Origin: a virus
IMG/VR virus record: IMGVR_UViG_3300010371_000113
Location: 1-24,100 of that record
DNA: 24,100 nt
Direction: 5' to 3' (one strand)
Both the position numbers and the translations under genes were made by a program. The notes beneath the pieces were generated by a model. That model was not told the DNA's origin, did not search any database, and saw only the letters and a list, made by a program, of their open reading frames with translations. Numbering within the stretch: the stretch's first letter is position 1; every line of letters starts with the position of its first letter. This document shows positions 1,651 through 23,351 of the stretch, one piece after another.

Positions 1651-2646
1651 ATGAGCTTTCCCACACGAGTCAATGCACAGCCGGCCCCGGCAGTACCGGG
1701 CGGGTTCGCGGGCTGCAACCCGCGCGCTGCTGTGCTCGCGCCACCGGGCGGCTACGTCGCTGCGCCAGACTATCCGGCCAGCTTCGGCGGAGCCACCAAG
1801 GAAGCCCTGATAGTGGGCCGCTTCGCGTGGTTCAACTACGCCACCGGGCAGGCTTCGAACTACTACCAGCCGGGCAGCATTCTGGGCTTCGTGCAGCGCC
1901 AGAACGGTATGACCGTCATCAAGGACTTCCTTGGTGAATCCCGCCTTGGCTTCCAACAGGGCTTCCCTGTCACCGGCCACAACCAAGGGGACTTCTACGC
2001 TGACTTCACGCCCGGCCCAGACGCCGCTGGCCTGACTGTCTACGCGGACCCCGTCACAGGACAAGCCACGGCGGCTGCAGCCGGCCAGGGCGTCCAGTTC
2101 GCCATTACGGCATCCCTGGCCAATACGGGCGTCCTGACGGTCACCGTGACCGCTGGAACGCTGGCCGTGGGCCAAGTCGTCACCGGCACCAACGTGCCCG
2201 TGGGCTCTTTCATCACGGCCCAGCTTACCGGCACAGCCGGCAGCACGGGCACGTACCAGTTGAACCAGGGCGCCACTGTCGGCAGTGAAGCCATGGTGGC
2301 CACCGGTAAGGTGGAGACGAAGTTCAAACTGGCGCAGCCGGTTGCGGGCGCGGTTGCCTTCACGGGCGCGTGGCTTGGCACGGTGGTGCCGGCTGGCGCA
2401 CCCTTCGCGGGTTTGACCGTGGCGGATGGTCTGTTGACCGTCAGCGCGGTGGCCAGTGGAACGTTGGCTCCGGGCCAGCTTCTGGGCGGCACCAACGTGC
2501 CGGCCTTTGCTCAGATTCTGAGCCAGAAGAGCGGCACCCCTGGCGGCACGGGTGTGTATCTCACCAACCTTTTTGCGCTGATTGCGTCCGAATCCCTGAC
2601 CGCTGGTCAGGGTGACACGGCCAAAATCAGCACGTGGCAGGCATAA
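1651..2646 (+). CDS. Structural cement-type protein, paralog 1, with two inserted beta modules
   Basis: 331 residues. The core (1-140) and the C-terminus (TAKISTW) match phage structural cement proteins of the Gp24 type, which sit on the outside of capsids: an NPRAAVLAP start, VGRFAW at 55-60, GFVQR, GDFYADF and VYADPVTG. Between core and end are two Gly/Thr/Val-rich beta modules, residues about 151-218 and 252-318, each with an LTVxxVxxGTLxxGQ...GTNVP pattern. The start ATG has a good Shine-Dalgarno (AAGGGG, 8 nt upstream) overlapping the previous stop. It is the first of three tandem paralogs before the capsid gene. Family assignment is from memory of conserved motifs. Confidence 0.75.
   Translation: MSFPTRVNAQPAPAVPGGFAGCNPRAAVLAPPGGYVAAPDYPASFGGATKEALIVGRFAWFNYATGQASNYYQPGSILGFVQRQNGMTVIKDFLGESRLGFQQGFPVTGHNQGDFYADFTPGPDAAGLTVYADPVTGQATAAAAGQGVQFAITASLANTGVLTVTVTAGTLAVGQVVTGTNVPVGSFITAQLTGTAGSTGTYQLNQGATVGSEAMVATGKVETKFKLAQPVAGAVAFTGAWLGTVVPAGAPFAGLTVADGLLTVSAVASGTLAPGQLLGGTNVPAFAQILSQKSGTPGGTGVYLTNLFALIASESLTAGQGDTAKISTWQA
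2105..2151 (+). repeat. Module repeat copy 1 (partner at 3921-3967)
   Basis: This 47-base stretch in cement paralog 1 and its partner at 3921-3967 in paralog 3 are almost identical at the DNA level, with only a few, mainly third-position, differences, and encode the same TASLANTGVLTVTV segment. The genes are otherwise strongly diverged, so the module start is better conserved than the genes that carry it. Confidence 0.7.
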
Positions 2647-2648
2647 CC

Positions 2649-3431
2649 ATGACTCAGGTTACCAACAGCGGGTTTCAGACCATCGTCAACCGTCAGCCCG
2701 CCGTGGGGCAGGCTGGCGACTTCTACGGCACCAACCCGCGTACTGTGATCCTGTCGGGCAATTCCCCAGCGGGTGGCGCGGGCAACAGCGGCGCCGCTGC
2801 GCTTGGTCAGTTGGTCGCACCCCACAGCGTGGACGGCTTCCAGCCGGACGGGCTGGTGGTCGGGAACTTCGCGTGGGTTGACCTGACCAGTGGCAACGTT
2901 TCGCAGGGGTACAACACCAACGGCCAGTTGGGTGTGCTCCACCGGGATGACACGGCCGTCATTGTCACGTATCTGGGCATTTCCACGTACGTGCAGAATG
3001 CGGGCTTTGCCATCACCCTGTTTTCCAACGCCGACATCTGGGCACTGTTCGCGGCGGGCGCGGCAGTCGGCCAGAAGGTGTGGGCGGACCCCGTCACGGG
3101 TGCGCCGGTAGCTGGCGGGGCCGCTGCGCCCACGACGGCCAGCTTTACCGGCGCCGTGAACCACCTTACCAACGTACTGACGGTCACCGCTGTGGCGTCG
3201 GGTGTGTTGGGCCAGGGTGCGGTGATTGCTGGCGCGAGCGTGCCGGCAGGGTCGCAGATTCTGTCACAGGTTTCCGGCACCCCTGGCGGTATCGGAACGT
3301 ACAACGTCAGCGGCACGTATGGCGCGGACGTTGCAGCCGAAGCCATGACCGTGGCGGCCGTTGCTACTCCCTGGAAGGTCAAGTCCAAGGCGGGCAATGG
3401 TGAGACGGCAAAAATTTCAGCTTGGGGCTAA
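2649..3431 (+). CDS. Structural cement-type protein, paralog 2, with one beta module
   Basis: 260 residues. It shares the core pattern of its neighbours: RQPAVGQAGDF, NPRTVIL, VGNFAW at 71-76, GVLHRD, VGQKVWADPVTG and the closing GETAKISAWG. A single beta module lies at about 162-236 and resembles the second module of the upstream paralog most closely (QILSQ-SGTPGG-G). The ATG at 2649 comes two bases after the previous stop; an in-frame GTG at 2634 would overlap the upstream gene and is less likely. It probably decorates the capsid shell. Whether all paralogs are in the virion cannot be seen from sequence. Confidence 0.72.
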   Translation: MTQVTNSGFQTIVNRQPAVGQAGDFYGTNPRTVILSGNSPAGGAGNSGAAALGQLVAPHSVDGFQPDGLVVGNFAWVDLTSGNVSQGYNTNGQLGVLHRDDTAVIVTYLGISTYVQNAGFAITLFSNADIWALFAAGAAVGQKVWADPVTGAPVAGGAAAPTTASFTGAVNHLTNVLTVTAVASGVLGQGAVIAGASVPAGSQILSQVSGTPGGIGTYNVSGTYGADVAAEAMTVAAVATPWKVKSKAGNGETAKISAWG

Positions 3432-3433
3432 CC

Positions 3434-4201
3434 ATGGGCTTTCAGACAAAAGTCAATCTTCAGCCGGGCGTTGCGCAGGCCGGTGATTTCGCGGATGCCA
3501 ACATCCGTTCCACCGTACTGGCCGGCCCTGGCGGGTTCATTGCGGCGCCCTTGCCGCGTGGCCCCATTGTGGGGAATTTCGCGTGGGGCAACCAAAATCC
3601 CACGCTGTTGGACGCGTCGGTGGAAGTCTCGGGCCAGTCGGGCACGAGTGAGGGCCAGCAGGTGGTTGGAAACTACCAGGGTGAGACGGGCTGCGAAATC
3701 GGCTTTGTGCACCGTGGCAGCAACCCGGCCATCATTGTGGGCTACCTTGACGACTCCACGGAGTACGTCCAGCCCGGCCTGTTGGTCACCCTGTTCAATA
3801 AGGGCGGGTTCTTCGCGTCCTTCGCGGCGGGCGCCACGCCCGGCCAAAAGGTGTTCGCGCTGTACAAGGACGGTTCCGTTGTAGCTGCGGCTGCCGGCAC
3901 GTCCACACAGGTTGCCAGCGTTACGGCGTCCCTGGCCAACACCGGTGTCCTGACGGTCACGGTTGTGGGCTCCGGTACGGTCAACGTCGGGGACGTGGCC
4001 ACAGACGCGGCGGGCAACAGCTACGCCATCACGAAACAGCTTACCGGCACCCTCGGGGGCGTCGGAACTTACCAGACCAGCCTGACGGGAGTAACGCAGG
4101 CTAGCGGAACGGTCTCCACTGCTGATAGAGTGGAGACTGCTTATTATGTTGACTCGCCAGCGGCTGCTGGTGAGCTTGCGAAAATCACCACTTGGGGTTA
4201 A
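3434..4201 (+). CDS. Structural cement-type protein, paralog 3, with one beta module
   Basis: 255 residues. It opens MGFQTKVNLQPGVAQAGDFA, the most family-typical N-terminus of the set, then NIRSTVLAGPGG, VGNFAW, GFVHRG, FAAGATPGQKVFA and the closing AGELAKITTWG. The beta module at about 165-230 begins TASLANTGVLTVTV, identical over 14 residues to the first module of paralog 1. The ATG at 3434 is preferred over the in-frame TTG at 3422, which lies inside the previous gene. It sits immediately upstream of the major capsid gene, the usual position for cement or decoration proteins. Confidence 0.75.
   Translation: MGFQTKVNLQPGVAQAGDFADANIRSTVLAGPGGFIAAPLPRGPIVGNFAWGNQNPTLLDASVEVSGQSGTSEGQQVVGNYQGETGCEIGFVHRGSNPAIIVGYLDDSTEYVQPGLLVTLFNKGGFFASFAAGATPGQKVFALYKDGSVVAAAAGTSTQVASVTASLANTGVLTVTVVGSGTVNVGDVATDAAGNSYAITKQLTGTLGGVGTYQTSLTGVTQASGTVSTADRVETAYYVDSPAAAGELAKITTWG
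3921..3967 (+). repeat. Module repeat copy 2 (partner at 2105-2151)
   Basis: This is the direct-repeat partner of 2105-2151 and lies at the start of the beta module in cement paralog 3. Confidence 0.7.
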
Positions 4202-5319: not shown

Positions 5320-5889
5320 GTGCGCGCCCTCAACACGGCGGGGCGTCCCCCTGCGGTTGAGGGCGCTTTCGCTTCCTACAACCCCCGCTTTCAGATACCT
5401 GCCGGCCCTGGCGCCCTTGTTGGTGAACCCAACGGGGTGTCAGTGGGCCGGTTCGGCTGGGCTGACCTTGCCACCGGGCTGGTCTACTCGGCCCGCCAGG
5501 ACCCTACCAACCTGCTGGGCTTCGTCTACCCGACCAAACGCGGGTGGCGTCGCACGTATTGGGACAAGACGCGGCGGGCGCTGGTCTCGCGCGGGGGCTT
5601 CGAACTGACCTTGGCCCGCGCTGGGGACTTCTGGGCGCGGTTCCCACAGGGGGCCATCCCCGGCCAGGACGTGTGGGCCAACCAGACTGACGGCACCCTG
5701 TTGGCCCTGGAGCGCCAGGACTTGACCGGGTGGACGGCCGACAGTGTGGACGTGACCGCAGACAATACCGGCGCCACGGCAGACGGGGGCTTTGGATACC
5801 CCGGCTACGAATTGACCCCTTGGCAAGTCATCTCGTATGCTGGCGCTGGCGAACTTGCCATAATCACCACTTGGAGTTTTACACCGTGA
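5320..5889 (+). CDS. Structural cement-type protein, paralog 4, without inserted module
   Basis: 189 residues from a GTG start 2 nt after the capsid gene stop, suggesting translational coupling. It carries the bare family core: FASYNPRFQIPAGPGALVG, VGRFGWADLATG, LLGFVYPTKR, GDFWARFPQGAIPGQDVWA and the closing AGELAIITTWS. The C-terminal part (about 135-165) is a short Asp/Thr/Gly-rich link where the others carry the beta modules. It may be the minimal form of the decoration protein, or a shell protein with a different symmetry position. Assignment is by motif similarity to its neighbours. Confidence 0.7.
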   Translation: MRALNTAGRPPAVEGAFASYNPRFQIPAGPGALVGEPNGVSVGRFGWADLATGLVYSARQDPTNLLGFVYPTKRGWRRTYWDKTRRALVSRGGFELTLARAGDFWARFPQGAIPGQDVWANQTDGTLLALERQDLTGWTADSVDVTADNTGATADGGFGYPGYELTPWQVISYAGAGELAIITTWSFTP

Positions 5890-17268: not shown

Positions 17269-18609
17269 ATGGGCGCACCACTTCCGCCAGTCATACCGGA
17301 GCCATTCGCCAATCAGGCGGTTGTGGGGCCATCCCCTGGCAACAAGACGGCACCCATTCCCGATACGGTCACGGACTCGTCCCTTGCGTCGTGGGCGCTG
17401 GGGTGGCAGCCCATTACCATGCAACCGGTGGCTGCGGGCGGCAAGCCCCCGAAGGGCCAGGACGTAAACGGGGTCCTGTTCGCCATCACGTCCCACAATT
17501 ACTTCACCCAAGCCGGCCAGCTTTTCCCCTGGCTGTCCGCTGTGGCCACGGCCATTGGCGGGTACGCTGTGGGCACCGTGCTGGGTAGCTCCGATGGTTC
17601 CACCGTCTGGTTCAACACCAGCGCGAATAACATGACCAACCCGGATGACCCCAGCACGGCAGCCGGCTGGGTGTCGCTGTACACCTACGGGTTTCTGACA
17701 CTCAACAGCCTGACGGGCGGAACGGTCACGCTAAACCCACAGCAGGCCGCACGGCGTTATATCATCCTCAACGGTTCGCTGGCGGGCAACCTTGCGGTGG
17801 TCGTCCCCAACACGATTGGCGGGCGCTGGCTGGTCATCAACAACACGTCCGGCTCTTTCAGCGTCACGGTACGCACGGCGTCCGGCATTGGCGTGAACGT
17901 CCCCCAAGGTGGCTTTGCCAACCCCATGGAAGTCTACGGGGACGGAACCAACATTTACCCCACGGTGGCGCCGCTGGGTGTTCCGATTTCGCAGGCCGCC
18001 ACCCCGCTGACATTGGCGGAGCGCGACAACGCGGGCCAGTTGATTGCCGCGTACTTCCTTGGAACGTCCGCTTTCGAGAATCCAGCCGGCCAGCCTATCA
18101 ACGGCCTGATTGGTCTTGGCCCCGACCAAGCCACGTTCCGCAAGTACCATACGCTGGACATGCAAGCGGCCATGAACTTGGCCAGCTTCGCGGGGCAGGT
18201 GACTGCGGGGCAGGTCCCACAGGCTGCCGTCACCCAGTACGCTGCGGCTATCCTGGCCAGCGCTGCGTTGACCGGTACGCCCACGGCCCCGACGCCCCCG
18301 CCTGGGACTTCCAACAATCAGGTGGCCACCACGGCGTTTATTACTCCGGGCGCGTCGCTGACCAGCCCCGGCTACTACAAGCTGCCGGGTGGTCTCATTG
18401 TGCAGTTTGGTGGTGCATTCAACAGCGGCACAACCATCACCTTTGGCAGCACAGGCGGAACTACGCCCATGACTATCTTGGGCGTGGTGTGTATCGCTAT
18501 AGCGGGCGGGGCCGTGCAGTGTTGGCTTTCGTCCAACCCTATTGGCACGTCTTCATTTACGGCCAACACGACAGGCGGCCAGTTCATCTTTATAGCGGTA
18601 GGGCACTAA
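17269..18609 (+). CDS. Tail fibre protein 1
   Basis: 446 residues. The first 105 residues form an attachment domain (EPFANQAVVGPSPGNKTAPI ... ATAIGGYAVGTVL) that is shared with the next gene. A beta-rich shaft follows, then a LTGTPTAPTPPPGTSNNQ hinge at about 338-355 typical of tail fibres, and a C-terminal head beginning GYYKLPGGLIVQFGG, which resembles the gp53-like fibre C-terminal domain. The tip probably contacts the receptor. There is no signal peptide and only two cysteines. It follows the DUF2612 gene after a 10-nt gap. Confidence 0.8.
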   Translation: MGAPLPPVIPEPFANQAVVGPSPGNKTAPIPDTVTDSSLASWALGWQPITMQPVAAGGKPPKGQDVNGVLFAITSHNYFTQAGQLFPWLSAVATAIGGYAVGTVLGSSDGSTVWFNTSANNMTNPDDPSTAAGWVSLYTYGFLTLNSLTGGTVTLNPQQAARRYIILNGSLAGNLAVVVPNTIGGRWLVINNTSGSFSVTVRTASGIGVNVPQGGFANPMEVYGDGTNIYPTVAPLGVPISQAATPLTLAERDNAGQLIAAYFLGTSAFENPAGQPINGLIGLGPDQATFRKYHTLDMQAAMNLASFAGQVTAGQVPQAAVTQYAAAILASAALTGTPTAPTPPPGTSNNQVATTAFITPGASLTSPGYYKLPGGLIVQFGGAFNSGTTITFGSTGGTTPMTILGVVCIAIAGGAVQCWLSSNPIGTSSFTANTTGGQFIFIAVGH

Positions 18610-18612
18610 GCC

Positions 18613-19347
18613 ATGAGTGGACAACCGGCACCCATTAAACTCGTTGAGCCATTCGCCAAGAATGCGCCCAACGGTAACGTACCGGGCGGGAAAACCAACC
18701 CGTTTCCGGTAGCGTCGCAGATACCGCTAGGGCTCCCTGGCAACGCGTCCCTGGACGACGGCTACACCCCGTTGAACATGACGCCGCTGGTGGCTGGCGG
18801 TATCCCCATGTCCGGCCCCGACACCAACGGTGTGCTGTATCTGTACGGCACCACCATTGCGGCTGTGGGCGCGGGGCAGGTGTTCCAGGCGTATGACAAC
18901 ACGTACGCCACGGCCATTGGCGGCTACGCCGTGGGCGCCATCCTGGCGGGCGTGGCCAACCCCAAAGCGTTGTTCATGTGCATCACGGCGGGGACAAACT
19001 CGGACCCCGAGACGGACCACGCCAACTGGTACTTGGTCAACGGCGCCCTGCGTAGCTCCAGCACCCCCGGTGCCGGCACGCATGCGGACAACACCGTGGG
19101 CGGCCCGTCTGACTACTTCGTGGATATCGACACCACGGGCGGCAACGTTACGCTGAACGGCTTCGTGAGCCAGCGTGACGGGCAGCGGCTGACCATCACC
19201 AACATTGGAACCAGCACGCTGACTATTGGCGCGTTCGCTGGGTCCACCAACAATCAGGTACGCTCTAGCGGAGCTATCGCGCTGTTGCAGTGGGACAGCG
19301 TCACAATCGGTTACTGCGCGGCTGTCAACAAATGGGTAATTGTATGA
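18613..19347 (+). CDS. Tail fibre protein 2 (paralog of fibre 1 N-terminus)
   Basis: 244 residues, ATG 3 nt after the previous stop. Residues 1-110 repeat the attachment domain of fibre 1: VEPFAKNAPNGNVPGGKTNP, then MTPLVAGGIPMSGPDTNGVL and ATAIGGYAVGAIL. The rest (about 140-244) is a short beta-helix-like region with DTTGGNVTLNGFVSQRDGQR and a LTITNIGTSTLTIGAFAG strand pair, ending VTIGYCAAVNKWVIV. It lacks the hinge and gp53-like tip, so it may be a connector to which another fibre binds, or a shorter fibre. It overlaps the next gene by 4 nt. Confidence 0.7.
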   Translation: MSGQPAPIKLVEPFAKNAPNGNVPGGKTNPFPVASQIPLGLPGNASLDDGYTPLNMTPLVAGGIPMSGPDTNGVLYLYGTTIAAVGAGQVFQAYDNTYATAIGGYAVGAILAGVANPKALFMCITAGTNSDPETDHANWYLVNGALRSSSTPGAGTHADNTVGGPSDYFVDIDTTGGNVTLNGFVSQRDGQRLTITNIGTSTLTIGAFAGSTNNQVRSSGAIALLQWDSVTIGYCAAVNKWVIV

Positions 19348-20732
19348 AGAAACTGTTAGCCCTTCTGGCTTTGCTCCCGGTCCTGGCCTTTGGCCAAACG
19401 GCCTTCACCAAGTACGGCCCGGCTGCTGGCATCCAGAAGAACACCGGCAGCACACCGTATGACACCGCAGCCGTGGCGGCTGACATTTACGGCCTGTGGT
19501 CGGGTACGTGTTCGTCTACTACCTTCCTGCGGGGTGACGGTGCCTGCGCCGCTCCCACGGGAACTATCACGGGCGTCAGCATCACCCCAGCGGGCGGCAT
19601 GAGCGTGACGGGCTCCCCGTGTTCTTCGGGCTCCTGTTCGTTCACGTTCTCCACCACTTTGACCGGTCCGGTAAAGGGCAACGGCAGCGCGTTCACTACA
19701 GCGCTAGCGGCTGACATTTACGGCCTGTGGTCAGGCACGTGCAATTCCACCACGTTCCTGCGGGGTGATGGAAGCTGCGCGACTGCTGGCGTAACCGTGC
19801 CGGGTTCCAACGGCCAAGTCATATACAACAGCAGCGGCGCGTTGTCGGCCAACAGCGGGTTCACTTACGACGGTTCGGGCAGCATCACGCTTGCGGGCCG
19901 TGTCCAGGCGTTGGGCACCAACAACCAGTTTGGCGCCACGTCAGCGCAGAGTTTTGGCACGAGCATAGGCGCCAGCACGGACGGCTCCCATTACGCCGTT
20001 CACACATCCGTGGACGCCAACGGCAACCAAGTTTGCTTTGGGCTGAACGTTAGCGGTAGCACACAATGCAACATCCCCACGGGTAACTTTGGCATTGGCT
20101 ACACCACGGTGTTGCCGTTCGGTATCTATCGCAACGGCGTGTCCCAACTGAGCTTCACCACTGGGGGCGCGGCAACGTTCGTGGGTTCGGCTACCGTCAA
20201 CGGCACCATGAACGCAACCACGGCTGTGCAGGTCAACGGGGTAAACGTTTGCCAGTCCACGGGCACCAACTGCCCGGCTGCTGGTTCGCCCGGTGGCACT
20301 AACGGACAGATTCAGTACAACAACAGCGGCAGCTTCGGGGGCGCAGGCTTCCTTATCGGTGCTTCTGGCGGCCTGTACTCCACTGCGCAGGCTGACAACG
20401 GCGCCAACAGCATCAACGTTTCCAACCTGTACCAATCGACCAACTGGCCCGTTGCGCGGTTCGTTGCGTGGTCAGGCACGTGCAGCAGTTCGGGGTGTAT
20501 CACCGGTAAGTCTATCGGTATATCCAGCGTGACGCGCACGGGCACCGGGCTTTATACGGTCACCCTGTCCAACGCCATGTCCAACGGTGTTTGCACGGCT
20601 AGCATTTTCGGCGTGTCCACGGCCGTGGGCATTTACGTGAACAGCAACGCCAACAGCACCACCACCGTTGAAGTCGTCAACGGTTCGGGGACTGCGGTAG
20701 ACCAGGGCTTCATGATTCAGTGCGTGAACTAA
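19344..20732 (+). CDS. Cysteine-rich fibre-like protein with Sec signal peptide
   Basis: 462 residues from the ATG at 19344 (ATGA overlap). It begins MKKLLALLALLPVLAFG with likely cleavage before Gln18: basic n-region, leucine-rich core and A-x-G cleavage box. The mature part is Gly/Ser/Thr-rich fibre-like sequence with a duplicated segment, ADIYGLWSGTC(S/N)STTFLRGDG, and two NGQ(V/I)xYNxSG motifs common in tail fibres. I count 14 cysteines, many in close pairs (PCSSGSC, CQSTGTNC, CSSSGC), against two in each upstream fibre, which fits export and disulfide formation. Function is unknown: a fibre assembled outside the cytoplasm, or a secreted or surface protein of the infected cell. Confidence 0.7.
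   Translation: MKKLLALLALLPVLAFGQTAFTKYGPAAGIQKNTGSTPYDTAAVAADIYGLWSGTCSSTTFLRGDGACAAPTGTITGVSITPAGGMSVTGSPCSSGSCSFTFSTTLTGPVKGNGSAFTTALAADIYGLWSGTCNSTTFLRGDGSCATAGVTVPGSNGQVIYNSSGALSANSGFTYDGSGSITLAGRVQALGTNNQFGATSAQSFGTSIGASTDGSHYAVHTSVDANGNQVCFGLNVSGSTQCNIPTGNFGIGYTTVLPFGIYRNGVSQLSFTTGGAATFVGSATVNGTMNATTAVQVNGVNVCQSTGTNCPAAGSPGGTNGQIQYNNSGSFGGAGFLIGASGGLYSTAQADNGANSINVSNLYQSTNWPVARFVAWSGTCSSSGCITGKSIGISSVTRTGTGLYTVTLSNAMSNGVCTASIFGVSTAVGIYVNSNANSTTTVEVVNGSGTAVDQGFMIQCVN
19476..19550 (+). repeat. 75-bp direct repeat, copy 1 (copy 2 at 19707-19781)
   Basis: It encodes AADIYGLWSGTCSSTTFLRG and the following DGACA. The second copy starts 231 bp downstream (in phase) with about ten base differences, mostly in the middle part. 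This is an internal duplication within the signal-peptide fibre-like gene. Confidence 0.8.
19707..19781 (+). repeat. 75-bp direct repeat, copy 2 (copy 1 at 19476-19550)
   Basis: Second copy of the internal duplication, encoding the same segment with CNSTTFLRGDGSCA. Both cysteines of the unit are conserved between copies, which suggests that each unit closes one disulfide. Confidence 0.8.
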
Positions 20733-20739
20733 CATTGGG

Positions 20740-20982
20740 ATGACGATTGTGGAAACGGTTGAAGTAAAAGTGGCCCGCCTGGAAACACAGGTAGCGGCCG
20801 TAAAAGAGAACGTGGTGGATATCCGCACGGACCAGAAGGCGCAAAACGCCAAGCTGTCCCAACTGTTGGAGTACCACCAGCAGCGCAAGGGCGCGCACGC
20901 TGTGCTCAAGGTGTTGGTTACGCTTGGGGGCTCCAGCGGGTTCATTGCGCTGGTGGCCCAGATTCTGGAGCACGTGAAGTGA
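20740..20982 (+). CDS. Small coiled-coil/membrane protein, putative holin (XhlA-like)
   Basis: 80 residues. Residues 1-45 form a heptad-rich helix (VEVKVARLETQVAAVKENVV, then DIRTDQKAQNAKLSQLLEYH) and residues 53-75 one membrane segment (AVLKVLVTLGGSSGFIALVAQIL). This layout is like haemolysin XhlA-type phage proteins that act with holins. It lies directly upstream of the endolysin and overlaps it by 4 nt. A GTG at 20749 is an alternative start. Holin function is inferred from layout and place. Confidence 0.6.
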   Translation: MTIVETVEVKVARLETQVAAVKENVVDIRTDQKAQNAKLSQLLEYHQQRKGAHAVLKVLVTLGGSSGFIALVAQILEHVK

Positions 20983-21431
20983 CCACGGCTGCCGTCAAGC
21001 TCTTCCAGGCTCGAAAGAAACGGGAGGAAGGGGACAAGCCCAAGCCGTATGACGACGCCACGGGTAAAGCCGTGGTGGCCCCCGTGGGTAACCTGTCGTG
21101 GGGCCGGGGCTACAACCTTATGACCTGCGGCAGCCCTGGCCTGTTTGACGCCATGGACGACTACTTGGACAACGCGTTGGACCGCGAACTGTCGGCCTTC
21201 GCGTGGTACCGGGAGCTAGACGCGGAGCCCACGCGCCAGTCCGTCATGCTGGACGTAGCGTACAACGCGGGCGTGAATGGGCTGTTGCACTTCCCCAAGA
21301 TGCTGGCGGCAGCCCACGCGCGGGACTGGGCAACGTGCGCGGCGGAGTGTAAAGTGGCGGACGCACGGTTGGACATATCACGCTATGCCCCGTTGCGCGC
21401 CCTTATTCTATCTGGAGACACCGCACTATGA
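20979..21431 (+). CDS. Endolysin, phage lysozyme (GH24-type)
   Basis: 150 residues from a GTG overlapping the upstream stop. It matches GH24 lysozymes: KREEG with Glu17 as likely acid, YDDATG with Asp26 nine residues later as in T4 (E11, D20), GNLSWGRGYNL where Ser40 stands at the usual Thr position, and LDVAYNAGVNGLLHFPKML with a C-terminal helix. The stretch KAVVAPVG between Asp and GNLS makes the spacing longer than in T4. It hydrolyses peptidoglycan at the end of infection. There is no signal peptide or SAR anchor, so it needs a holin for export. Confidence 0.85.
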   Translation: MTTAAVKLFQARKKREEGDKPKPYDDATGKAVVAPVGNLSWGRGYNLMTCGSPGLFDAMDDYLDNALDRELSAFAWYRELDAEPTRQSVMLDVAYNAGVNGLLHFPKMLAAAHARDWATCAAECKVADARLDISRYAPLRALILSGDTAL

Positions 21432-22093
21432 ACGCTTTCGTTTCGCATCTGAAGAACTACGCGGGCCATCTGATTGGCTACGTTGTTGCTGCGGCCACCA
21501 TCGTGGCTGCCGTTGACCCCACGAAGCTGAGCCCCACGGGCGCTGCCATCGTAGCCGGAGCCGGCACGGTCGTGGCCCTGGCCAACCACAGTTACAAGGC
21601 GGGCGCCGCGTCTGCCGTTCTCCAGGCCGCTGTGACGGCCCTGGAAGCTTCTGCCGGCCCTGCCAAGCTGGCTGTGGCTGCCCTGGCTGTTGGCCTGCTG
21701 GGCTTCGGTATGCACGGCTGTGCGACCGTCCAGAAGGCTGCCACGGTCGTCACGAGCCCGCAGGCTCAGCCATATATCCAGGCGGGTGCCCTGGCCGCTG
21801 TTACTGTCGCTGAAGCCCACGGCATTGCAGCGGTCCAGATTAACGCGGTGGCCAAGAAAGCCCTGGCGGCTGACCAAGGCGCCGGGGCGTCCCTGGCTGC
21901 GGTCAAGGCTGTTCTGGACGTGGAGCTTGCCAAGCTCAACCTGCCGGCTGGTGACCTGCTGGCCATCACCATCGTGGAGACGGAATTCAACGCGTACGTC
22001 CAGTCCAATATTGGACAGGACCCCACGTTGACCAAGGCGCAGGCCGCTGCGGCTGACATCTTCCAGGCCGTCATTGCGGCTACGGGCGGCTGA
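21428..22093 (+). CDS. Hydrophobic lysis-cassette protein with internal lipobox-like cysteine
   Basis: 221 residues. Hydrophobic stretches lie at about 15-29, 38-52 and 80-95. The last runs LAVAALAVGLLGFGMHGC, ending in Cys98, and is followed by a hydrophilic alanine-rich helix region (110-221) similar to small lipoproteins I recall from phage lysis regions (AAVQINAVAKKALAADQGAG, LAKLNLPAGDLLAI). It looks like a membrane (holin-like) segment fused to a lipoprotein-like segment. The bases before Cys (M-H-G) are a poor lipobox. It could be a holin, an outer-membrane-directed spanin-like protein, or both. It overlaps both neighbours. Confidence 0.5.
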   Translation: MNAFVSHLKNYAGHLIGYVVAAATIVAAVDPTKLSPTGAAIVAGAGTVVALANHSYKAGAASAVLQAAVTALEASAGPAKLAVAALAVGLLGFGMHGCATVQKAATVVTSPQAQPYIQAGALAAVTVAEAHGIAAVQINAVAKKALAADQGAGASLAAVKAVLDVELAKLNLPAGDLLAITIVETEFNAYVQSNIGQDPTLTKAQAAAADIFQAVIAATGG

Positions 22094-22494
22094 TGTTTTT
22101 CACTCGATTCACCAGTGACGATGGCCCCGGACCTGACTTGTGGACGGTCCGGGCGCCATTGGTGTGGGATGACCCCGTATACGGTCACCTAGTCGTCCCT
22201 GCCGGCTTTGTCACCGACTTGGCCAGCATCCCCCGGCTGTTCCGAAACCTGCCGTTCCTTGACCCCAACGGGCTGTCCAGGCGGCCCGCCGTGGTCCATG
22301 ACTGGCTGTACGGTTCGGTTGAGGGCCGGGCGCACGGTAAGGAATTCGCTGATAACTTCTTGCGGGCTGCGCTTCTGTCCGAAGGCGCGAGCCCAGCCGT
22401 TGCCCAAACCTTTTTCCTTGCGGTTCATCTGTTCGGCTCCGGCCCGTGGGATGACGACGGCGTCAAACTCGCACGGGCCAACGTGTTGCCCTAG
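22093..22494 (+). CDS. DUF1353 family protein
   Basis: 133 residues; the ATG overlaps the previous TGA (TGATG). It matches DUF1353: VVPAGFVTDLASIPRLFRNL, then RPAVVHDWLYGS, a HGKEFADNFLRAALLSEGAS segment and VHLFGSGPW. The conserved His-Asp (HDWLY) and downstream Asp suggest a metal or catalytic site, but no activity is established that I know of. The family is common at the end of phage structural or lysis regions. Its stop is interlocked with the stop of the convergent gene. Confidence 0.85.
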   Translation: MFFTRFTSDDGPGPDLWTVRAPLVWDDPVYGHLVVPAGFVTDLASIPRLFRNLPFLDPNGLSRRPAVVHDWLYGSVEGRAHGKEFADNFLRAALLSEGASPAVAQTFFLAVHLFGSGPWDDDGVKLARANVLP

Positions 22495-23351
22495 AACCCG
22501 TCCGCGCAGATTGGCCCGATACCAGCGGCCACTGACTCGGCGTTTTCCAGCTTCCGCCCACACACTCCGCATGTACCTGTGAGCTTGCCGTACGCGATTA
22601 CAGCGGCCTTGGGGTCCGCCAGGATGGCGCGCAACTGGTCCACGCATTTCCCGCTGTACGTCTTGCCAGGGGCTTGGCGGCCATACTTCTGTTGCTGGCC
22701 GTACTCCGCCGCGTCGGACACAAACACCCAGCCGGCCCACTTGCCAGGGGCTTCCGGTTTCTTCACCAGCAGCTTTAGCCGGGTGTCACCGTCCGGCACC
22801 GCGTACCGGCCAGCCGGCAGGGCGGACAAGTCCAGGCCGCTGCCCTCCGGCTCCGCCTTGGCCGCTTCAACAGCCCGCGCCTTGGCCCTGGCCGCGTCGG
22901 ACTCCATGGCGTTGTATGCGGCGTTAAGCTGGCCTTCGCTCATGCTGCCCTTGTTGGCCAACCGCTCCAGGCAGTTGCGCGCGAAGTCCCAACGCTGTTC
23001 ACGCTGGCGCAGGTAGTCAATGACGGCCCGGTGTTCCTCAATGTACGCGTTGCGGGCGTCCTGTTCCTTCTGCACGTTGGCCTGCTTCGTGGCCTTGGCC
23101 TTCTCCACGCGTTCGTTCATCCCGTGGGATACCCGGCCCGTACCGTGGCAACGGAAACAGTCACCAACCACCCGGCCCGTGAACTTCGAGCGGAACACCC
23201 CCGAACCGTTGCACGCGCGGCACTTGTCCTGCTCAATCGCGCGCTGGGGGTCCTTGGTGGCGTAGTTGACTTGCGCGTCCAAGAAGGTTGGCTCCGCGTC
23301 AAGGTTGCCTTCTAAGTCTGAGAAGTTCGTTTCCACGCTGGCGGGCTCCAC
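22491..23351 (-). CDS. Zinc-motif protein with DnaJ-like CxxCxGxG pair and DUF6011 end
   Basis: 286 residues from a GTG at 23351. Residues 44-71 hold two C-x2-C-x-G-x-G half sites (CRACNGSG and CFRCHGTG; Cys44, 47, 65, 68), which together build one DnaJ-type zinc site. Residues 75-175 are charged and helical, probably coiled coil. Residues 180-255 are a beta-rich domain with GRYAVPDGDTRLKLLVKK and KWAGWVFVSD. The end, CGVCGRKLENAESVAAGIGP followed by IC, is the DUF6011 pattern with three cysteines. No J domain is present. A nucleic-acid or protein-binding role next to the polymerase is plausible but unproven. It has its own promoter-like sequence upstream and no clear Shine-Dalgarno. Confidence 0.75.
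   Translation of the reverse strand: MEPASVETNFSDLEGNLDAEPTFLDAQVNYATKDPQRAIEQDKCRACNGSGVFRSKFTGRVVGDCFRCHGTGRVSHGMNERVEKAKATKQANVQKEQDARNAYIEEHRAVIDYLRQREQRWDFARNCLERLANKGSMSEGQLNAAYNAMESDAARAKARAVEAAKAEPEGSGLDLSALPAGRYAVPDGDTRLKLLVKKPEAPGKWAGWVFVSDAAEYGQQQKYGRQAPGKTYSGKCVDQLRAILADPKAAVIAYGKLTGTCGVCGRKLENAESVAAGIGPICADGF

Follow-up and report, generated by a model that had tools for sequence, protein, structure and literature searches.

Fibre proteins and phage-encoded envelope proteins

Trimeric autotransporter adhesins are fibrous beta proteins exported by Sec. Among phage proteins of the cell envelope, T5 Llp and T4 Spackle are small and made early in infection, and Llp is a lipoprotein. 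Both are phage-encoded envelope proteins of superinfection exclusion (PMC9586334, PMC7677548). Tail fibres are usually treated as cytoplasmic proteins, and the absence of a signal peptide has been taken as support for the phage origin of tail-fibre-type proteins (PMC6199706). In the open-access literature, we found no report of signal-bearing tail fibres and no virion proteome covering one.

A signal-bearing gene in the tail module

The window, i.e. the whole stretch of 24,100 nucleotides analysed here, comes from a phage with a sheath protein that is ~43% identical to that of Pseudomonas phage Orisa and 39% identical to that of Aeromonas phage 56. Its tail module contains, beside two other fibre genes, the gene at 19344-20732. 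The original prediction of a fibre-like protein with a Sec signal and 14 cysteines at this position was confirmed, with exact coordinates. The gene and its neighbours are organised as follows:

17269..18609, + strand: cytoplasmic tail fibre A, no signal peptide, 2 Cys, 446 aa (phrog_12796, E 4e-53)
18613..19347, + strand: cytoplasmic tail fibre B, no signal peptide, 2 Cys, 244 aa (phrog_12796, E 1e-14)
19344..19347, + strand: ATGA overlap with the stop of the upstream fibre gene (from the sequence, in five phages)
19344..20732, + strand: gene of the predicted exported fibre-like protein (ATG 19344 to TAA 20732; 462 aa, 14 Cys)
19344..19394, + strand: Sec/SPase-I signal peptide, residues 1-17 (MKKLLALLALLPVLAFG); rule-based prediction, cleavage predicted before Q18
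19395..19559, + strand: mature N-terminal module with the first Cys-paired repeat (C56/C68)
19665..19787, + strand: second copy of the Cys-paired repeat (C133/C145), by HMM match
20283..20346, + strand: GGTNGQIQYNNSGSFGG module, common to many phage fibres
20451..20729, + strand: C-terminal fibre/tailspike domain with 4 Cys (380, 385, 417, 460), by domain family and Foldseek; weak match to phrog_11355 'tail fiber protein'
20740..20982, + strand: small coiled-coil protein with one hydrophobic segment, holin-like by position; a similar small gene lies at the same spot in L026
20979..21431, + strand: putative endolysin (phrog_7, E 0.004, weak)

The cysteines of the 462-aa protein are located at positions 56, 68, 93, 98, 133, 145, 231, 242, 303, 310, 380, 385, 417 and 460. 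As had been claimed, the two upstream fibre genes are of the cytoplasmic, Cys-poor type. Fibre A, fibre B, exported fibre and small gene(s) follow one another in this order in the window and in the related contigs L026 and L033, and also in L030, which has an extra ORF.

Downstream of the putative endolysin gene, a 221-aa ORF (21428-22093, + strand) combines a hydrophobic segment at its N-terminus with a lipobox-like stretch further inside (LLGFGMHGC); it has no PHROG match and may be a lysis gene in which a lipoprotein starts internally. A 286-aa ORF on the opposite strand (22491-23351, - strand; phrog_4046 of unknown function, E 2e-41) is convergent with the structural genes. At the other end of the window, three paralogous genes of a minor head protein (phrog_2122; 1651-2646, 2634-3431 and 3422-4201, + strand) lie in tandem just upstream of the major capsid gene, and 5320-5889, downstream of the latter, looks like a fourth phrog_2122 paralogue.

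Signal peptide and start codon

The N-terminus, MKKLLALLALLPVLAFG followed by QTAF, displays an n-region with Lys, an h-region rich in Leu and a cleavage site of the form A-x-G with small residues at -3/-1, and the predicted Sec/SPase-I signal was recovered by our n/h/c-region filter. This filter is home-made and rule-based, not SignalP. It was positive in 5/170 ORFs of at least 250 aa, and the signal is in this respect more than a chance finding. A lipobox with Cys at +1 is absent from the product, in which AFG is followed by Q and the first Cys is residue 56, and a Pfam search detected no outer-membrane anchor.

In all five diverged phages compared (the window, L001, L026, L033 and L030), the ORF starts at the Met of the signal inside an ATGA overlap with the preceding gene, which is fibre B in the window, L026, L033 and L030, and a short fibre-like ORF in L001. 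Because this overlap fixes the start in 5/5 cases, translation from a start downstream of the signal, as considered in the original prediction, is very unlikely. The signals of L026 and L033 are identical at 11/19 positions versus 55/56 in the residues that follow, and both remain hydrophobic, which, judged from the sequences, is the pattern of signal peptide evolution.

Since the signal predictor is a simple rule, the hydrophobic segment could also be a virion-docking helix that mimics a signal, in which case the product would stay in the cytoplasm. This reading is improbable: n/h/c-region structure and AxA/AxG-type cleavage sites are present in many unrelated members, the h-region diverges in sequence but keeps its character, and the even, covarying cysteines described below make sense only in an oxidising compartment.

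Cysteine pairs accompany the signal peptide

The product contains a 45-residue repeat in two copies, one in the mature N-terminal module and one at residues ~108-148, each with a Cys-x11-Cys spacing. A single HMM matches twice and the pairs 56/68 and 133/145 are kept, in agreement with the proposed internal repeat that retains both of its cysteines. Viral contigs were gathered by two DNA patterns for this repeat, TFLRGDGx followed by either Cys or Trp, and the same signal rule was applied to both groups. A signal peptide is present in 15/16 five-prime-complete TFLRGDGxC ORFs; when the window and a duplicate contig are left out, the count is 13/14, compared with 7/97 for TFLRGDGxW ORFs (Fisher 3e-11). 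The sole signal-negative Cys ORF, L025, begins with MRARWLGLFGLGVAYMAIPQAQ, which may also be a signal. A Cys at T-4 accompanies the downstream Cys in 36/36 repeats and is found in 0/132 repeats of the Trp form; such coupling is what a disulphide should leave behind, although related repeats do not count as independent events. In L028 and L039, Cys-form and Trp-form repeats occur within one protein, and the repeats are therefore shuffled.

A second set of fibre-like proteins was chosen solely by the GQIQYNN module and hence without regard to cysteines. A signal peptide was called in 33/98 of these proteins, and the exported ones contain 16.9 Cys per 1000 residues versus 3.5 in the others (p 7e-12, where the p-values for the Cys contrast ignore shared ancestry). 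Above 50% GC, the corresponding values are 17.8 and 5.5 Cys per 1000 residues. The Cys count is even in 23/27 complete exported proteins of this set. Several 'signal-less' Cys-rich ORFs, e.g. L015, resemble missed signals, and the contrast between exported and non-exported proteins is therefore conservative. As a statistical rule, the distinction drawn in the original prediction between ordinary fibres, which are cytoplasmic and Cys-poor, and exported ones thus holds. Its claim of export and oxidation gains strong support from these comparisons, by which export and disulphides of the exported fibre-like class appear well supported and the 19344-20732 product is placed in a large class, beyond a single odd protein.

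The GQIQYNN pattern was absent from cellular genomes (0/398), and the genomes of 84,980 species contained only four TFLRGDGxC matches, all in unrelated ORFs. The scarcity of the latter in cellular genomes bears on the idea of a lysogenic-conversion factor, i.e. a host adhesin expressed from a prophage. Sec export combined with fibre-like stalks resembles bacterial adhesins, but with no autotransporter anchor found by Pfam and with the gene located in the structural module, this idea is very improbable.

Fibre domains and a probable repeated gain of export

The C-terminus of the product is a member of an HMM-defined family of C-terminal domains from phages, of which the collected signal-less members contain 0-3 Cys and the window protein four. 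Structure prediction, which had been proposed as a check, was informative for this domain, whose model (pLDDT 65, moderate) came out fibre/tailspike-like: Foldseek retrieved the phiAB6 tailspike as a weak PDB match (prob 0.98, E 0.23) and tail spikes/fibres in BFVD at E 1e-4 to 1e-3. The whole-protein AlphaFold model (pLDDT 34) was worthless. Peptidase_S74 is found above the Pfam cut-off at the ends of L026 and L033, which are syntenic exported relatives, and the exported relative L018 contains a right-handed Beta_helix domain. In the product itself, Pfam detected neither Peptidase_S74 nor a recognised enzyme domain. The phrog_12796 N-terminal domain, common to fibres A and B, has no match in the product either, and because this shared docking domain is absent, the product is named fibre-type rather than a proven virion fibre.

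A secreted adhesin or depolymerase that acts freely is another candidate: it would leave the cell at lysis in soluble, oxidised form, clear or coat surface polysaccharide as an enzyme or binder, and never enter the virion. The beta-helix of relatives such as L018 would suit this role, and disulphides suit a protein that needs durability outside. The lack of a recognised enzyme domain in the product speaks against this possibility, as does the Peptidase_S74 chaperone of its relatives, which is typical of trimeric virion fibres; we consider it rather unlikely.

The same domains occur in signal-less and in exported proteins. An exported spike of the podovirus contig G006, with a signal and 4 Cys in the shared domain, is 37% identical over ~290 residues to the annotated tail spike of the isolate Pam5, which has no signal and 0 Cys. 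Likewise, an LPAxxALTGxE module lies ~5 aa from the Met in cytoplasmic fibres and 4-6 aa past the predicted cleavage site in exported proteins of two loci. Fibre architectures therefore seem to have acquired export on more than one occasion.

Exported genes in other phages

At the equivalent place, no signal-bearing fibre was present in three annotated isolate relatives, with sheaths ~39-43% identical, and one prophage record. The 19344-20732 product had no match at 1e-5 in INPHARED (26 Vibrio matches at E 2 are attributed to chance), and a search of the same database with the repeat, the C-terminal domain and the other exported fibres retrieved a match for none of them except the G006 spike, which matches isolate phage proteins whose sequences are without a signal. 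Overall, the protein search of 50,697 phage records identified no isolate phage carrying an exported fibre. The PDB sequence search gave nothing useful for the product, and for L026 a weak match (E 0.03) to the distal subunit of a long tail fibre. Circe gp063 was set aside, as nothing links it to export.

In G006 (L305/L306, 35.2-40.8 kb), the capsid and tail genes flank five signal-bearing fibre-like genes, and none of the fibre genes recognised in this contig lacks a signal. Should G006 have no fibres besides these exported proteins, the latter must reach the virion, but the contig may also encode a fibre that escaped recognition, or may be incomplete. The podovirus-like contig G005 (L303, ~37.2-52.0 kb) contains a run of about eight neighbouring signal-bearing genes, which encode proteins with as many as 1372 aa and 21 Cys; a database match is lacking for most of them.

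These runs also bear on receptor masking or superinfection exclusion, in which the tip of an exported fibre, situated in the periplasm or at the cell surface, would bind the receptor used by its own phage, block re-adsorption and keep progeny from adhering to debris when the cell lyses. This function would suit a protein that is secreted, ends in a domain of the receptor-binding type and shows no recognised module for docking to the virion. The C-terminal regions also diverge strongly among syntenic relatives, as would follow if each kept pace with its receptor. Masking would nevertheless require neither as many as about eight different exported proteins in one phage nor fibres that bear chaperones, the product has no lipobox or outer-membrane anchor, and its gene lies in the tail/lysis module rather than in an early region. 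Masking is unlikely on balance, and it ranks first among the rival explanations, followed by the free adhesin or depolymerase and then the non-cleaved docking helix.

Proposed route of the exported fibre

The reading that we tentatively favour, at slightly less than an even chance, is a tail-fibre/tailspike-type protein that is exported by Sec, oxidised in the periplasm, freed at lysis and active outside the cell, most likely on virions. Late in infection, the product would be synthesised as a precursor for Sec and led through the inner membrane by its signal peptide, and signal peptidase I would cut after residue 17. Dsb-type periplasmic oxidation would then close intrachain disulphides, at positions occupied by Gly/Ala/Pro...Trp in the ordinary cytoplasmic repeat, and the protein would trimerise in the same compartment. 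The folded fibre would stay in the periplasm until the adjoining lysis genes open the cell. It would then serve outside for adhesion or receptor binding, as an appendage that is most likely attached to progeny virions via its conserved mature N-terminus.

Several observations argue against this reading: the phage of the window already has two ordinary fibres, the product lacks a phrog_12796 domain for docking, and the isolate relatives with sheaths ~39-43% identical are without an exported fibre at the equivalent position. Of the roles initially proposed (an added fibre, a decoy or receptor masking), the fibre domains, the position in the tail module and the G006 contig favour an outside or virion fibre over a decoy, while the sequence cannot separate these roles or prove one of them. 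Proteins of this kind occur in many uncultured phages, and some phages thus probably send fibres across the host membrane for disulphide locking before use. A broader and more tentative possibility is that many tailed phages of Gram-negative bacteria finish their receptor-binding fibres outside the cytoplasm, via Sec and periplasmic disulphides, and that these join the capsid-tail particle only at lysis; if true, the assembly of tailed-phage particles would draw on two compartments. The existence of a large class of fibres that are exported and oxidised would alter the annotation of phage adhesins and their expression, which would call for periplasmic, Dsb-competent hosts, and it would raise the testable question of two-compartment virion assembly or receptor masking.

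Comparison with known systems

By its domains, the 19344-20732 product is of the tail-fibre/tailspike type, in a compartment variant that we did not find described in the open-access literature. It shares with cytoplasmic tail fibres and tailspikes the repeat shaft, the GQIQYNN module, the position in the tail module and, according to the model, a beta domain at the C-terminus that resembles the phiAB6 tailspike and many BFVD fibres; Peptidase_S74 is found in its syntenic relatives L026 and L033. It differs from cytoplasmic fibres by its signal peptide, by paired cysteines that replace Trp/Gly/Ala/Pro, and by the absence of a phrog_12796-type N-terminal domain. Pam5 gp18 (the annotated tail spike) and Agrobacterium phage Rivra gp20 are 35-37% identical to the exported spike of G006 over ~290 residues, but both lack a signal peptide and contain 0-1 Cys. 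Unlike Llp and Spackle, the product has a large fibre-like body and no lipobox, and unlike trimeric autotransporter adhesins, it is without a C-terminal barrel anchor detectable by Pfam.
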